Below are positions 14,314 through 30,957 of a stretch of DNA of 64,000 nucleotides, in pieces. The stretch lies in NCBI RefSeq assembly GCF_022201045.2, contig NC_068564.1, positions 32,827,001 through 32,891,000 on the forward strand, given 5' to 3'. The DNA comes from Citrus sinensis. Lineage: Eukaryota > Streptophyta > Magnoliopsida > Sapindales > Rutaceae. Each line of letters opens with the position of its first letter. Position 1 is the stretch's first letter. A model generated the notes under the pieces. That model saw only the letters and a program-made list of their open reading frames with translations. It did not search any database and was not told the DNA's origin. The position numbers and the translations under genes were made by a program.

Positions 14314-17300
14314 TTAGCACCCACTGCCCGTAGTTACATATTGATTGAGTGCTGAGAACCACGACCTTCTACGGTCAGTGTTGGAAACCGACCGTCTAAA
14401 GTTCATTCTTGAACATCCAACGAGCTTGTCTCGGAGATTCCGGTTGCATGGAACTAAAGAAGAGCTAGTTTCTGGATCTCCCAAGCAGAAGCTGGAGTTG
14501 AGTTTTATTGATGGGAACTTCTGGCAGCTTAAGCTACGGAAAGAAGATCCCAGTGGGGAAATTCGGGTGCAATGGAAACCAGGCTTGCAAAGTCCTGTTG
14601 TTAGTGAAGTGGACTCTTGTACTTGATGATCAACAGAACAGGTGCAAAATGTCAGGGACAAACTACTTGTTCTTGTAATTTCCTTGATAGGTCTCGTCCC
14701 TGGTAGTTTATCGAATGAGACTATGCCATGACGGCAGAGTGGACAAGGAATTGAGCCAATAGGCCCTTTGGCAACAGCACAGGAACTGTTTGTAGAGCAG
14801 AGGTATAAGGCACATTGTGTACAGAACTCGTGATCACAGCCTGCACCACAAGATATTATGGATCATTGTCTTGGCCATGCAAGGATTTGTAAAGCGATGG
14901 CTATTATACCTACATTAGAACAATTGATGGTGACATAAAGAGTAAATTAAACACAATAGAGATGCAAACTACCAATCAAGCCTAAAACTAGATTGTTCAA
15001 ACTTAAAAAATGAAAAATCCAGGTCAGTGTCACCTCCAGTTCATAGAGTTTTTAACACAAAATTCAGCTTGGTAATGAGATAAATGTAAATAAAGTACTG
15101 CCTCAATAAACATACACATATTTGTATGTATGGATGAATGCACATCAGTCCTTTACCCATTTTTTGAGGAGGATCCTGTAAATTTCTATTACACTGCACT
15201 AAAATTTCCACTATAATATAGATGAAAATTGTAATAGAAACATTACAGCAACAAAAAGGATCCAAGATGTCAAAGAGAATCTCTTTGCATCACCAACTCC
15301 TCTTTCCAGTTTAGTTGTAATGGATCTTAACTTTATAAAGAGAGATAGAGAACTGCTTATAATGATTATAGGTCAATCGTAATTACCTTTTGCAGCCACT
15401 GTGCACTTTCTTTCCAAACAAACAACACAAGGATCAGGGCATGTGGATAAAGAATCACTATTCCGCCATCCACATTCTCTGCAGAAGACAAAAAAAAAGG
15501 TAAACAACTAGATTTATCTAACATGTGATGGCCCTATGCCTTTATGTGAGAAAGAGAGACATAGAAGGATTTAACACCACTACAAAACAGACGACCAGAA
15601 ATCCACCAGAAGCAAAACCTAGACTACCCAAAAGTTGTTAACATGAATACCATAGTACATCCAATATCAGTTGTTCAAAATTTCAAGCTGAGATACCTAA
15701 GACCACCCTCTAGTAGTTACCAATCATATGAGATTATTTGGAAATGAATGAAAAAAACTCTTGAATGACACGAAGTGGATCTTCCATGTTTAGTCATTTC
15801 TCACAGATATTCCATTCAGATGATAAAAAGTATCTTAGACATATGAAAAACCTTTTGTTGAGAGTGTAACATTCATTGGGCAACTGAAAATACATACTGT
15901 AGTTTGATCAGAACAAAATTATAATTCAAAGTTACTGCCATGAGAACAACATATGCTAGTGCAGTAATATGGAGTAAGGCAAAATTTAATCACCTAGCAA
16001 TTTTGACAATGCTCATGAGGGGGAGAGCAAGATACGGTGAAGGAAGAACCTCAAGTCGGCCTTCTGGCTGCGTGCTAAGAATGTCCTCAAGACCTGTTCT
16101 ATGCCATGAACGAGCAACCATCAAAGGAGTCCATCTGCAGCAAATTGAAACATTACAAGGAGTCAACGCCTTTAGCTTTCTAAGAGAAAAAGAAAGGCAT
16201 ATCTCCAAAGAGTCTCCCTGAAGATCATAAAACTAATAGATCTTGACCCAACAATGTCTTGCATCTGTAATCTATATCATCTGTAGGAAAGCATAGTTCC
16301 AATTTTTCAAATAAGAATTTTTTCAGAAAAGTAGACTAACTAGAATGAAAAACTTTGGGAACTATTGACATCTTAGGAAAAACTTCTTAAGAGACTCTAT
16401 GCACATGCAATATCAGACTTAAGAATGCAGATCCTCTGCCTCTTAAATCCCATTCCTCCATATGCCTCAGGGATATATTGAAACATTATCAAAATCACAA
16501 AGCATCCAGAACCCACTACGCAGCAAGCTCCATGAGTTCTTGGAAAGAAAAGCTAAGAGCAAATACTTGTGTAACCATCCAAACAGCGGGTTAAAATCCT
16601 ATAGATTAAATGGCTGAAATCAGAGCATCAAATTGATCTTTCAAGGAGTTAAAAGTACTCAAATCAGGGACCATCCTCTCAATGAAATTAGAGGTTTGGA
16701 AATTCACGAAGCATCACCAGCTTCTCTGTTTCCATTTCATAAGATTAGTGTCAATCTAAGGCCCCAGTGTAAGACAAAGGACTATGTGATCATTGTATTA
16801 TTCCCCATTTAGAATATCATATATAATTAATACCTCAGAACCTCAATCCTTTTGTTTTCACATAAGGAATTGAAGAACCTTGGTTCTCACTTGATCAAGT
16901 TCACAGTTGATTTCATACATTTTTTGACTCAGCGATCATATCAAGGACTAGCTGTCTAGCTCACTGCACCTTGAAAAAGCTTCATTGTGCCTCCTATTTT
17001 GTCCACTTTAATTGGATCACTAATACAGTTTTTACTGTTAGAGCTCTGTAGTTCCAAGGGGGAGTAGGGAAGGGATAGAGGGCTTCCTTCTACTGTGTAG
17101 ACTACTGAAGCAGTCAATCCTCAACTGGTCAATAGTTTCTAGAAGTTAGAAACCTCACCTCTTCCCCCTTTTCCTGACATATTCACACAAACACATAAAA
17201 CTAAGAAAAAGAAACAATAAGAACAGAAACCAAGTGGTGCAACAGCATCAAATGATAACATTTCCCGAAGCTTACTTGAATATGAAACAAATAAAAGTCA

Positions 17301-19873
17301 CAGTTAAATGGAAAACATAACACACCCAAGTGAAAATCTACAACAATATAAATTTTGAATATTACAAGAACAGAGGATACATAAAAGTCATACCCATTTG
17401 CATTTTCAGCAGTCAGACTAGCACCCATGGCAATCAAAATCTGGACCACAGTTCATTTAGAAATTGTAAACTTCAGCATAGATACAACAAAATCAAAATG
17501 CAGATATTAGTCAAATAAACATACTTGACAACATTGCGCATTTCCACCACATGCAGCATAATGAAGGGATGTGCTTCCAGCGCCTGAAACAGACAAGTAC
17601 TATTACAGAGAATGGAACACAGAAGCAAATAAAACATTCCGACAATTGAAAAGGTTTAGAAAGTATTGATCATCTGAACATATCTTTTAGAACAAGTGGG
17701 TATCTCGTTTTCTAGTTAAAATGAGGTCAATTGACTTAAAAGATGAAATCACACCAACCATAAATGTGCTATTGTTTCTGAATCGCAAAAAGGCTTAAAC
17801 TGAAAAGTTTCCATGAATGGAATATCGGTCTGGTGAACCCATCAAATGTTCATAATCATACTATCCTTCAATTATATGCTGCCAAATTCATGCATTTCCA
17901 GCTGAAATAAACCTAACTGATATGATATCCGTGATCAATTAATAAAGAATTAACAGTGAACAGTGAAATTACTTGTACAGAATCAAATTCATGCTAATAT
18001 GGCAGAAGAAGCAGAAAAGGTGCCACTTCGGCCTTGGCCGAAGTGGTGGGCTGCTGCCCTCACAAGCATTGTGAGGGCAGCGGTTCTAGCCCCCACAAAA
18101 GCATTGTGGGGGCTAAATGTTCTTTATATTTAAAAATCCTTCTCCCTTGCGAAATGCAAGTGGAGAATGGACATCCCTCTCCTGTGAGGGGTTATTTGTC
18201 TGGGCATGTACTTCATAGAATTCATTGTAATAATGTAAGTCCCAGTCATGTATATCTGATTGTAAATATCAGTGTAATATCTCTACTACAATAAGCAGTT
18301 GTTGTAAATATCTGTGTAATGCAGTAATCTGATGATTAATCAGTATTAAAAAAAAAAAAAGCAGAAAAGGTAAAAATGTGCAAGAGCACCAAATAGAGTT
18401 GCTTCTTTTTCTTTTTTTTATTTGCTTGGGCCTTCATTAAAATGGGTATCATCTAAAAGAAGTATATCTGTGTAACGTATCTGCTTATTGTATAGAAAAG
18501 ACACGATACAGAAAAATTGAAGAGAAGAATGAGCAATGATAAGAGTTCAGAAATTGAATCTTTATTTATCAAAGTGAAATGAAGGGAAGAGAGAGGAGAG
18601 GGCAGGAGGATCAAGAACAGATTCAGAACAAAATATCAAGATTAGGGCAAATTCTAACACTGACAAATAAATGTAGAGCCTTTGCTAACAGATTATAGGA
18701 CAAATATCATCACTCATAAAAAGCACAAGCATAAGGGATAACCTATTAGATCAATTGTTGTTCCATCTTCTATGGTGACCTCAGAAACAGAAGCTCCTAA
18801 GTCCAGGAGTAATTGCACGCTTTCAACATGTCCGTTTAGTGCTGCCATATGTAAAGCAGTAACTCCTCCATCAGCCGGTCTGTTAATTACCTCACGAAGA
18901 GTACTGGTGCATGCAAAATGGCAGAAAAAGTAAATCAGAACGAAAAAACTCAAGCTCACTTAAGTGTAAGAGGACTTCAAGATGAAAATACCTTTCATCA
19001 AATTCTAAGATCGACCCAGTTTTATTTGACTTTTTCCTTAACCTGTTCCACGCGTTGGGCACACTAGGAATATAATCTGCAAGAAGTAACCTGATACATC
19101 GAGAATGGCCATTTAAAGCAGCCAAGTGGAGTGCAGTACCCCCGTTCAGATAATCTGCTCTGTGAATCTAAGAAAAAATAAAAATTCCCAGACGCTCGTC
19201 ATACAATGTTAGCTACTAGTCTTTGTAACACTGATGGTTAATGATCTAAAGTAACTAGGTCATAGTAAATGCCTTACATTGGCTTTATAAAGAATTAAGG
19301 TTAGAACAACCTCCCAGTGACCATGCTGACAAGCTTGCATCAACGCAGTCTGTTCACCAATAAGATAAACAAAGTTTTCAACTATCATAGAAATGATATA
19401 TTGATTTCAAGATTCTAAGTAAAACAAGGTTTAAAATAGTAGCATCACAACCAAAATTTGATCAAAATAAACCAAAATTTCAATGAGACATAAATTAAAT
19501 TGTACCTGACCACGATAATTCCTGAGATTAATATCAACACCAGACTCGATCAAGAGAGAAACTATCTAAAAACAAGAAAGAAAAGTAAATCAATAGTTAT
19601 AAAAGTGATAATTCAGAAAATGCAATTAATCATTTAATACAACATTTTTCAGCTCAAATTGAAAATTGTATAGAATACCTCATGGTGGCCCTGAGCAGCA
19701 GAATAATGAAGAGGTGAATTTCGAACACCAAAAGTAGAATATCTCACCAGTCTTGGGTTGTATTCCAATAAAGCCCTGGCCTCTTGAAGATCACCATCTC
19801 TTGCAGCTGAAACTAATCGCTCCCCAGAAGCCGAACAACCAAAAGAATTACCCACAATGCTCAGAAATTTCAT
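14314..19873 (-). CDS. XBAT32: E3 ubiquitin ligase, ankyrin repeats plus RING-HC, XBAT32 type
   Basis: Ten exons join in frame: 19873-19679, 19565-19506, 19349-19278, 19167-18992, 18903-18743, 17583-17525, 17440-17394, 16134-15994, 15478-15387 and 14840-14314, giving 509 residues, close to Arabidopsis XBAT32. Five or six ankyrin repeats lie between about 51 and 275 (for example [14 protein letters not shown] and [11 protein letters not shown]). A C3HC4-type RING follows with C321, C324, C336, H338, C341, C344, C367 and C370. The tail [14 protein letters not shown] is the XBAT32-like end and favours XBAT32 over XBAT33/34. The family member XBAT32 ubiquitinates ACC synthases and so limits ethylene and promotes lateral roots. 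The start is the first in-frame ATG; the frame runs open upstream without another ATG. Intron 5 (17584-18742) carries a SINE. Confidence 0.96.
18022..18360 (+). mobile_element. tRNA-type SINE with three tandem perfect hairpins, in XBAT32 intron 5
   Basis: The element is flanked by a 12-base direct repeat AGCAGAAAAGGT (18010-18021 and 18360-18371) and ends in a run of about 13 A, the mark of LINE-driven retroposition. A box A-like TGGCCGAAGTGG lies at 18035-18046 and a box B-like GGTTCTAGCCC at 18082-18092, 47 bases apart start to start, as in tRNA-derived SINEs. The head folds into three perfect hairpins in a row: 18023-18046 (11-base stem, 2-base loop), 18053-18081 (13-base stem, GCA loop) and 18087-18115 (12-base stem, AAGCA loop). 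Hairpins 2 and 3 share a CACAA...GCATTGTG core. It sits antisense to XBAT32. No coding capacity. Confidence 0.8.
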
Positions 19874-28070: not shown

Positions 28071-29472
28071 TGTTTGGTTCCATCAAAGTTCAAACTTCCG
28101 AAAAGAAAATCCCAAAATCTATGAAAAAGCTGGCTCAAAAAGGAAAAGTTATCAAAAGCTCCCGTAAGATGATTGAAATACCCTTAAGTGTGAAGTTACA
28201 TACTTCCACATTTTGATGGTCAAAATCATTGTACAATGGTATTTGGTAATTTCCCTAGGGGTTGCCGGGTTGAGGACCTATTTGACATTATGGGTAAACT
28301 GTACCTTTATATGAGAAAACATAAGAATCCAGGGATCCAAATGTTATTTACTACTCAGACATACCGAGCTCAAAAGACTCATTTCAACGGGGTTCGGGAC
28401 CTCTTTGATACAAATAAAAAAACTATGCATTGTTTTTTGAAACTCACAAAATAGGGACGCGCAAATGTTATTTGCTCGAATACCAAAGTCTATGACAAAG
28501 TTGGCCAAGAGATGGGGGCGTCAAAGAAAAAGAAAAAGAAAAAGAAAAAGAGAAAAAAACGAGGAAAAACTGATTGTCTTTTGAATCGCCAGAGAAAGCT
28601 CCGTATCCGATGCTTTCTCAAAATTCCTTTCCAAATACTCTTATATCTCTCTCCGTAGACTTTGTAACTTTCACTAGTGCTGTGTGTCTTCTCCTGTCCT
28701 TGCTCACCACAAGAAAGAGCGATCTCTGGTACCTTGTCTACAATGTTACAAGTGTAACAGAACTATTAAACATGAAAAAGAAAGTGATCAGAACAAATGC
28801 AAAAGTAGTAAATAAGAAAACAGAAACAGAAAAATCAGTAAAAATAAACAAAACGAAAAACCCCATTTGAAGATTTTATTATCTTTTTTTTATAATCTTT
28901 TTATTTGCACTGAATAGTTTAGTCTGGGGAATTAAATGGGCATTGGGGTTGATGTAGATCAGCTAATGGTTTCTTTAAAGTCAACCCAAATGAGAAAGAG
29001 CCTTGTGTTTGATGGAAAATGAAGCAAAACAAGTCATCTTTCTAGTTTTAACCGGTGTGTATATAAATGAGAATTTGACTGTGATTCTGCGAAGGTTTTT
29101 ACAGCAAATGAGATTGTTGTGATCATTTTAAAAACACATTTATTTTTCTGTATTGTTGGTAGATTTATTTATTGGTTGCTGGTAGTCATCAATTTTGTTT
29201 TTTTTGAAAGCTCAACTTCTGTCACCATTTATATCGAACTCCTTAAATTCGCATTCAATTCTCTCTCTCTTTCTTTGGTCATTTGACTTGCAGTTTCCTA
29301 TTGCAGTGATAAAAATTCAATTTTTATCCCATTCACATGATATTAAATCTTGAAACAGCTTCTGGGTATCTTTGTTTTTGCTTGTTGCATATCAAATGGG
29401 ATGCGTGATAAAGTTGCAATCTTGGTGAGTTTTTCTTAAATCTTCTTTGGCAAAAGAAAAGGGAAAAAACAA
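28071..29472. other. ATL gene upstream region with an imperfect 122-base repeat
   Basis: Two loosely matching units start at about 28267 and 28389, each opening GGGTT(G/C) then GGACCT, TTTGA, and later GGGA..CAAATGTTATTT. An (AAAAAG)n stretch lies at 28525-28550. A TATATAAAT at 29060-29068 could be the promoter of the RING-H2 gene, giving a leader of about 380 bases. Confidence 0.45.
29060..29068 (+). promoter_or_regulatory. Possible TATA box of the RING-H2 gene
   Basis: TATATAAAT, about 405 bases upstream of the ATG at 29473. Position and context fit a promoter with a long leader, but the start site is not shown. Confidence 0.4.
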
Positions 29473-30957
29473 ATGGCTTGGTTTTTCCTTGAAATTAAGG
29501 AAAGTACCATCGTTTCTCCTTCATCACAGCCAAATTTTCTCCCACAGCCGCCTCCATCTCCACAAAACGTTAATGATGGGTTTAATTTGGACAATAAGGT
29601 CAGCCCTAGTATACTTCTTATCATTATAATTCTTGCTATCATTTTCTTTGTTTCCGGTTTGCTTCATCTTTTAGTAAGGTTTCTTTTGAGGCCAACAAAT
29701 AGAGACCCAGAAGATTTAGATAATGTGACTGCACTTCAAGGGCAGTTGCAGCAACTCTTCCATCTTCATGATGCTGGTGTTGACCAATCATTTATTGACA
29801 CTTTACCTGTGTTCTACTACAAAGCCATTATAGGACTCAAGAACCCTTTTGATTGTGCTGTTTGTTTGTGTGAGTTTGAGCCTGAGGATGAGCTCAGATT
29901 GTTACCGAAATGTAGCCATGCGTTTCACATGGAGTGTATAGACACATGGCTCTTGTCTCACTCTACTTGCCCTTTATGTAGAGCTAGCTTGCTTCCTGAT
30001 TTCTCTTCAAGCAATAGCTGCTCACCCGTTGTTCTAGTCCTTGAATCTGGGAGTGAGAGCTCAAGGGAGATTGGTGGGGATAGAGACAATCTAGGCAGAA
30101 CCAATTCAGTTCTGAGAACAAGTACCCATCTTGGGTGTCGTGGAAGCAGTGAATTTGGTTCATCCCACATTGATTATACACACAAGTCTTGTGAGATTCT
30201 ACCAAAAGAAGATGCAGTTACCTCACCGACAGCAGTGTTAGATTCAGGGGAAAAAGTTGTGCCTGTTAAGCTAGGCAAGTATAGAACTGTGGATGGAGGT
30301 GAAAGTAGCAGTAACAACAATATTGATGCTAGGAGATGTTTCTCTATGGGGTCTTTTGAGTATGTAATGGATGAAAATTCTTTGTTGCAAGTAACAATTA
30401 GAACACCAGTGAAGAAACAGTCCAGCAAGAAGCCCTCTTTGCCATTGACTCCTGGTCACAGGCTAGCAATGTCTGAATGTGATTGTGAATCAAGAAGAGA
30501 ATTCAATGGCTTTGACACAATTAAAGGTATTGGAAGTAGTTTTGGTTCTAATATTAGTGCGGGCAAGGGCAATGATATTGGTAGAAGCAAAACAGATAGC
30601 TTCTCCATATCAAAAATTTGGCTTCAAGGTAAGAAGGAGAAGCATAATTTGCCGGAAGATCCATCGAGGAGAGCTTTTTCCTTCCGATTTCCAGTCAATA
30701 GAAATGCTGCTGCGGTTGGCGATGACCGGGATTTGAAATCGAAGAATGGCAATGTTGGTACTAGGAGGACTATATCAGAGATTGGCATTAGCAGGTGGGA
30801 ATATGGAAGGAGTGAATTGGGTTGTGATGAAGAAAACCAAAGCTGTAGCAGATCGGATTTACAAACAAAGACACCATCCTTTGCGAGGAGGACTCTCCAT
30901 TGGCTTATGGGGAGACAGAACAAGGTTGTTCATTCGTCCTTTACACCCAATGTCTAG
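29473..30957 (+). CDS. ATL-family RING-H2 E3 ubiquitin ligase, 494 aa
   Basis: One intronless ORF, as is usual for ATL genes. A short luminal or outside N-terminus is followed by one membrane segment at about 46-72, a basic patch, the GLD motif (G-V-D-Q-S-F-I-D-T-L-P-V-F at 102-114), and a RING-H2 with C128, C131, C147, H149, H152, C155, C166 and C169, plus the W-L-L-S-H-S-T-C-P-L-C-R signature at 159-170. The Q-L-Q-Q-L-F-H-L-H-D block before GLD and the long Ser-rich tail are typical of the ATL13/ATL46/ATL47 subgroup. Proteins of the family are membrane-anchored ubiquitin ligases; the substrate is unknown. The tail has many Ser and basic clusters. ORFs in other frames and on the minus strand here are shadows. 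Confidence 0.95.
   Translation: MAWFFLEIKESTIVSPSSQPNFLPQPPPSPQNVNDGFNLDNKVSPSILLIIIILAIIFFVSGLLHLLVRFLLRPTNRDPEDLDNVTALQGQLQQLFHLHDAGVDQSFIDTLPVFYYKAIIGLKNPFDCAVCLCEFEPEDELRLLPKCSHAFHMECIDTWLLSHSTCPLCRASLLPDFSSSNSCSPVVLVLESGSESSREIGGDRDNLGRTNSVLRTSTHLGCRGSSEFGSSHIDYTHKSCEILPKEDAVTSPTAVLDSGEKVVPVKLGKYRTVDGGESSSNNNIDARRCFSMGSFEYVMDENSLLQVTIRTPVKKQSSKKPSLPLTPGHRLAMSECDCESRREFNGFDTIKGIGSSFGSNISAGKGNDIGRSKTDSFSISKIWLQGKKEKHNLPEDPSRRAFSFRFPVNRNAAAVGDDRDLKSKNGNVGTRRTISEIGISRWEYGRSELGCDEENQSCSRSDLQTKTPSFARRTLHWLMGRQNKVVHSSFTPNV

Follow-up and report, generated by a model that had tools for sequence, protein, structure and literature searches.

A young citrus SINE family with three abutting perfect hairpins and recurrent loop inversions, for which template switching is proposed

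A SINE is found on the + strand at positions 18022-18360 of the window, the stretch of 64,000 nucleotides that was analysed (C9:32827001-32891000, in a searched genome of 299.7 Mb and 11 contigs). It belongs to a plant SINE family that is young, has moved recently and ends in poly(A), with motifs resembling box A and box B; template switching is proposed as the probable mechanism behind its hairpins. The members of this family carry target duplications of their own and have moved recently, their head consists of three hairpins, and the loops of these hairpins have been inverted many times independently. The family is unusual in that its stems are perfect and abut and in that its loops occur inverted, the latter being invisible in a single copy. 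The head is best read as a set of young hairpins that would have been made and recopied by template switching.

The element and its locus

The element is bounded by two direct repeats (Table 1), which give a target duplication of 12 nt, or of 13 nt if one extra A beside the poly(A) is counted. TTTT is absent inside the window copy, and likewise in 50 of 60 copies. Open reading frame pieces that appear ankyrin-like by eye are present on the - strand (18714-18959, 18892-19167 and 19260-19406, in the region 17201-19406), and the element therefore seems to be intronic in an ankyrin-type gene and antisense to it. A - strand open reading frame at 14314-14862, with a cysteine-rich stretch that is RING-like by eye, perhaps belongs to the same gene. 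On the + strand, 29440-30957 encodes a RING-H2 finger protein of 505 aa (Pfam zf-RING_2, E 2.2e-14).

Table 1. Parts of the SINE in the window.
Feature	Position	Strand	Basis
Target site duplication, 5' copy	18010..18021	+	repeat search
SINE element without tail, subfamily S1	18022..18347	+	40 scored genomic copies at 92-100% identity; 287 body matches
Hairpin 1 (H1), 11 bp, arms 18023-18033/18036-18046, 2-base loop TT (18034-18035), box A motif in 3' arm	18023..18046	+	arms (mechanical search), fold, loop census
Box A motif TGGCCGAAGTG, first base = second base of H1 loop	18035..18045	+	motif scoring
Hairpin 2 (H2), 13 perfect bp at 18053-18081, arms 18053-18065/18069-18081, 3-base loop GCA (18066-18068), five further pairs including three G.U	18048..18086	+	arms (mechanical search), fold, loop census
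Box B motif GTTCTAGCC, across H2/H3 junction	18083..18091	+	motif scoring
Hairpin 3 (H3), 12 bp, arms 18087-18098/18104-18115, 5-base loop AAGCA (18099-18103)	18087..18115	+	arms (mechanical search), fold, loop census
Hairpin 4, in body; core arms 18146-18150/18156-18160, covarying between subfamilies	18138..18170	+	fold, copy comparison
Poly(A) tail, 13 A	18348..18360	+	sequence
Target site duplication, 3' copy; first A shared with tail	18360..18371	+	repeat search

Structure of the head

The sequence-only reading of this DNA had described three consecutive perfect stems, which measure 11, 13 and 12 bp and enclose loops of 2, 3 and 5 bases, and a mechanical arm search recovered all three between 18023 and 18115, with 100% complementary arms. 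The predicted RNA fold of 18022-18119 has an energy of -75.3 kcal/mol (z -10.76), and none of 200 shuffles was equally stable; for the whole element, z is -10.71, with 0 of 100 shuffles as stable. As single-stranded DNA, each hairpin yields a fold that beats 200 of 200 shuffles in stability. In the RNA fold, H2 is longer and occupies 18048-18086 with 18 pairs, of which three are G.U; the three hairpins therefore abut with no spacers, and H1 is modelled as a C(UU)G tetraloop because the RNA model forbids a 2-base loop.

Box A and box B have the consensus sequences TRGYNNARNNG and GWTCRANNC, respectively, from which the motifs of the window copy deviate by 0 and 1 mismatches. As had been proposed, these motifs lie within the hairpin arms, in the 3' arm of H1 and across the H2/H3 junction. 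Since shuffled heads reach like scores, with a box A of 0 mismatches in 16 of 500 and a box B of at most 1 mismatch in 169 of 500, the two motifs on their own are just suggestive. The supposed kinship of H2 and H3 also held, as the two have in common a 22-nt direct repeat of 86% identity. Elsewhere in the genome, one copy (L114, C3:43038310-43038770) has H2 and H3 fused into a single hairpin via their common CACAAG core, and another (L164, C1:11638250-11638313) matches H2 exactly at two places separated by 33 bases, the hairpin having been duplicated in tandem.

A recently mobile SINE family

A DNA search gave 765 candidate places, 40 of which were scored, with 92-100% identity over nearly the full element. 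The body pattern, with up to three mismatches, had 287 matches in the genome and its reversed control 0. Among 88 copies that match the body pattern exactly, both ends could be read in 60, and in 54 of these the target duplication measures 8 nt or more (median over all 60, 15), against 3 of 294 controls with swapped downstream flanks. The copies are short and dispersed, and A-rich tails are visible in those that were aligned. The element had been taken for a SINE with a poly(A) tail and a target duplication, whose perfect pairing might reflect youth, and further genomic copies with the hairpins and with duplications of their own were to be looked for; all of this was borne out.

H1, H2 and H3 are kept in both subfamilies, S1 and S2. 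The latter has an S1-like head with two G.U pairs in H1 and one extra A-T pair in H3, a diverged body, a box B motif with 0 mismatches (GTTCAAGCC) and a box A motif with 1. In all, 171 unique copies were analysed (142 S1 and 29 S2), a set that includes copies fetched for their loop state. Among the 88 exact-body copies, H1, H2 and H3 were unreadable in 28, 27 and 12, respectively. Several partial repeats of the SINE body are found in tandem at one place, C9:4751500-4752180 (L127 and L085).

One S2 copy (L096) sits in a local duplication on C7, whose other two members are without the element. The flanks match at 99% and 100% in the empty paralog at 9661245-9661986, and at 87% and 94% in that at 9692388-9693096. 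The empty site is directly readable, and the filled site has a short extra stretch beside its 5' end. The empty sites of these paralogs indicate that the family moved recently.

Target duplications that differ from copy to copy and short dispersed copies with A-rich tails place the family among SINEs. A recognisable tRNA origin of the head, which is not required of every SINE, was not found: ARAGORN detected no tRNA in the window, and there was no Rfam match at gathering score for 17900-18500 and four S2 loci, where microRNA matches were far below the gathering scores. The contrast that the sequence-only reading had drawn with ordinary SINEs, said to retain a cloverleaf, was not supported. The terminal inverted repeats expected of a MITE were not found, since the repeat search gave none linking one end of the element to the other; the duplications, moreover, vary in length and follow the poly(A). 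No account of the family was found in a literature searched by topic and sequence strings, represented mostly by openings of abstracts and with few subscription journals; neither "citrus" nor "hairpin" occurs in the text of the AnnoSINE paper (PMC8825457).

Inversion of the hairpin loops

Loops reverse-complementary to the common form were already present among the first 40 aligned copies. A census was obtained from whole-genome scans with exact arms and the loop left free, rows being counted by eye among the matches listed; of the 100 matches listed per scan, 68 had exact arms for H1, 84 for H2 and 70 for H3 (remainder 32, 16 and 30). Loop frequencies were taken from these scans alone, because copies had been fetched into the 171-copy set for their loop state. 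Among the matches listed, the 68 H1 loops were TT (61), AA (6) and TA (1), and the 84 H2 loops, two of which belong to one copy (L164), were GCA (55), TGC (16), GGC (6), GTA (3), ACA (2), GCC (1) and CCA (1). The H3 loops, in the S1 form only, were AAGCA (55), AAGTA (11), TGCTT, AGCTT, TAGTA and AAACA (1 each) among the 70 matches listed. H3 is inverted in 2 of these 70, namely in TGCTT and in AGCTT, the inverse of an AAGCT loop one change away from the common one.

The conversion of TT to AA requires two transversions, and that of GCA to TGC three. In the body of the element, by way of control, 1 of 4128 cells with TT or AA had changed to the reverse complement, and the equivalent replacement was seen in 1 of 17986 cells for triples in which it alters every base; adjacent double changes of any kind were seen in 118 of 25415. 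In the imperfect hairpin 4, the loop is GAAAT in 117 copies and inverted in none. In S2, H3 loops have been inverted from two parent sequences, AGCA (L187) and AGTA (L186). The S2 H1, with its two G.U pairs, has TT in 25 of 25 readable loops, a small number that would fit a need for perfect arms. CTTG is present at H1 in 85 of 102 readable S1 copies and in 25 of 25 readable S2 copies.

H2 is fragile, with deletions clustering there: it was unreadable in 16 of 121 copies with readable H1 and H3, and among these cases are deletions of various kinds, one insertion and one fusion of H2 with H3. Comparison of the age of inverted copies gave p = 0.04 for H1 in the set biased by copy fetching and 0.09 and 0.14 in cleaner sets, and p = 0.30, 0.52 and 0.18 for H2. 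In one duplicated insertion (L103 and L092, C3:47712545 and C3:47966098, about 250 kb apart) the loops are identical. A second candidate pair was discarded, as the match lay inside the element and was not a common site.

Independence of the inversions

The number of changes was estimated on a tree built from the body alone, with 128 of the 171 copies (only 6 of them S2) and 229 columns; the 43 copies without a usable 150-nt body were left out. For lower bounds, branches were collapsed if either of their two support values fell below 80, and the labels used for the change counts omit rare loops, TACTA being taken as an inverted H3 loop by assumption. The 10 AA copies at H1 require 10 changes (shuffles, 9.72; bound 8) and lie on the S1-full, S1-del13, S1-AATATGT and unassigned S1 backgrounds. 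At H2, the 17 TGC copies require 13 changes with respect to GCA (shuffles, 15.76; bound 7), and when the rarer loops are included, the 30 copies of that orientation require 15 (shuffles, 26.19; bound 9). For H3, three inverted copies correspond to three changes. AA copies are thus ungrouped on the body tree, while H2 orientation is grouped.

Homoplasy by itself is not special, since the H3 loop also shows it for a single substitution, C to T, whose 30 copies require 26 changes (shuffles, 26.47). The special feature is homoplasy that is multi-base and exactly reverse-complementary. The deepest switch at H2 is not necessarily an inversion, because the loops observed lead from TGC through GGC and GCC to GCA by one base at a time. 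TGC is common in both S2 and S1, however, and a single-change route followed repeatedly hardly explains its scatter over S1 backgrounds together with the presence of GCA in 11 of 22 readable S2 copies.

Covariation in the stems

Selection on the three stems, to be recognized by compensatory changes, had also been suggested. For each stem pair, changes from the subfamily state were counted in the readable hairpins of the 171 unique copies. H1-H3 have 163 changed stem sites, with C-to-T or G-to-A changes at 116 of them. Three pairs were changed on both sides, two of them to Watson-Crick pairs, where independent changes alone would be expected to give about 1.6 such pairs. This copy-level outcome is the one that the sequence-only reading had itself named as contradicting its proposal, yet dead copies tell little about whether source copies are under selection; as such copies behave in this way, the pattern of stem changes speaks neither for nor against such selection. 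Between S1 and S2, no two-sided change was found in the H1-H3 arms. Substitution rates in stem and body were set aside as evidence because only copies with readable arms were counted.

Hairpin 4, readable in 146 of the 171 copies, behaves differently, as its core pairs three and five differ between subfamilies. T-A is combined with C-G in 47 of 53 S1-del13 and 22 of 38 S1-full copies, T.G with C-G in 11 of 14 S1-AATATGT copies, and C-G with T-A in 27 of 28 S2 copies. These two compensated pairs, one of them via a wobble, are modest evidence that points to selection on the RNA fold of source copies.

Mechanism and alternative explanations

The head is composed of three abutting hairpins, which with template switching would mutate as units. 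A polymerase at a palindrome might switch template and briefly copy the opposite strand, which would create an arm that is reverse-complementary to a sequence already there (box A for H1, the box B side for H3) and restore perfect pairing; a copied stretch that spanned the loop would leave it inverted between unchanged stems. Loops swapped for their exact reverse complement with intact stems, as such events would produce, are what the loop censuses and the body control reveal. Multi-base compensatory stem changes are a further mark of the process, and compensated double changes were not in excess in H1-H3, against the expectation of some from template repair. Since a loop can be inverted only by copying from the opposite strand, the event would belong to a stage with double-stranded DNA, and not to RNA copying; this stage could be chromosomal replication or second-strand synthesis. 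We infer that template switching on double-stranded DNA caused the inversions, and it may also have built the hairpin arms.

Since the box A motif begins at the second base of the H1 loop, inversion of this loop alters its first base. Together with the change of the CUUG loop, this alteration would make H1 inversion a dead end, hence the lack of spread of an AA lineage; AA copies may be read as poor sources because they are ungrouped on the tree while H2 orientation groups. A more far-reaching proposal, which we regard as rather doubtful, is that template switching put the head together and keeps rewriting it, its hairpins being reverse-complement copies of a Pol III box or of a neighbor, its loops flipping at a high rate between two states, and the H1 flip lowering promoter activity. 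If this were true, inversion itself would help to decide which SINE copies can be sources.

Alternatively, selection for an RNA fold that serves retrotransposition, or proteins that bind double-stranded RNA, might preserve the perfect stems while the loops vary unconstrained. This explanation is possible though somewhat unlikely. The strong predicted fold, the preservation of H1-H3 in S1 and S2 and the compensated pairs of hairpin 4 with their intermediate T.G state are in keeping with it, as is the binding of HYL1 by the three stem-loops of SB1 SINE RNA, according to the available part of that report (PMC2408557). Free loops, however, would vary widely, and mainly the exact reverse complement is seen; the absence of two-sided S1/S2 changes in H1-H3 also argues against it.

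The same end product would result if the inversions arose by recombination between arms or by resolution of chromosomal cruciforms, without a polymerase template switch, but with 11-13 bp the arms offer little length for homologous recombination, and the varied H2 deletions better fit polymerase slippage. This route is unlikely, although microinversions at plastid palindromes are known and homoplastic, as far as the accessible text goes (PMC3123225). More improbable still is the spread of loop states among copies by gene conversion or exchange during reverse transcription, with few true inversions. The sharing of TGC by S2 and S1 means that H2 donors exist, and the fused hairpin of L114 also favors such exchange; AA, in contrast, has no donor lineage, each of its copies corresponding to a separate change on the body tree.

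Comparison with known systems

Like the citrus element, SB1 of Brassica is a plant SINE whose RNA, without a tRNA cloverleaf, forms three stem-loops. SB1 RNA binds HYL1, and a trend in the folds of SINE RNAs has been described (Sun et al., 2007, as cited in PMC2408557, of which a part was available). The stems of SB1 are bulged and mismatched, whereas those of the citrus SINE are perfect and abutting, with loops in both orientations. By analogy, the citrus head may act like SB1 RNA.

Loop inversion and the creation of arms by template switching in RNA genes have been reported by Monttinen and Loytynoja (2022), who list 69 "loop inversion only" patterns in rRNA and an enrichment of CTTG loops among one-step compensatory cases (available sections of PMC8794818). 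The citrus hairpins resemble these mutations in their reverse-complement arms, the inversion of loops in place and the CTTG of H1. Those events come from reconstructed histories of microRNA and rRNA genes, in which loop inversion is called rare in the same sections; the citrus hairpins, in contrast, belong to a multicopy retroelement, with inverted loops in 9% of H1 and 19% of H2 hairpins among the matches listed. Template switching as a maker of RNA hairpins has so far rested on reconstructed events, and the SINE family offers dozens of replicate hairpins in one genome on varied backgrounds, so that inversion can be counted, together with its dependence on the loop and on the length and perfection of the stem. 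It thus represents a natural record of hairpin mutation, and also a caution that perfect stems in a repeat are by themselves no proof of selection on RNA structure.

The inversions are also small and independently recurring, like the microinversions of plastid palindromes (PMC3123225) and the homoplastic microinversions of bird introns (PMC2903610). Unlike these, which affect plastid DNA or introns with no stem-loop association in the portions of the reports at hand, those of the SINE are nuclear and lie in perfect stems.
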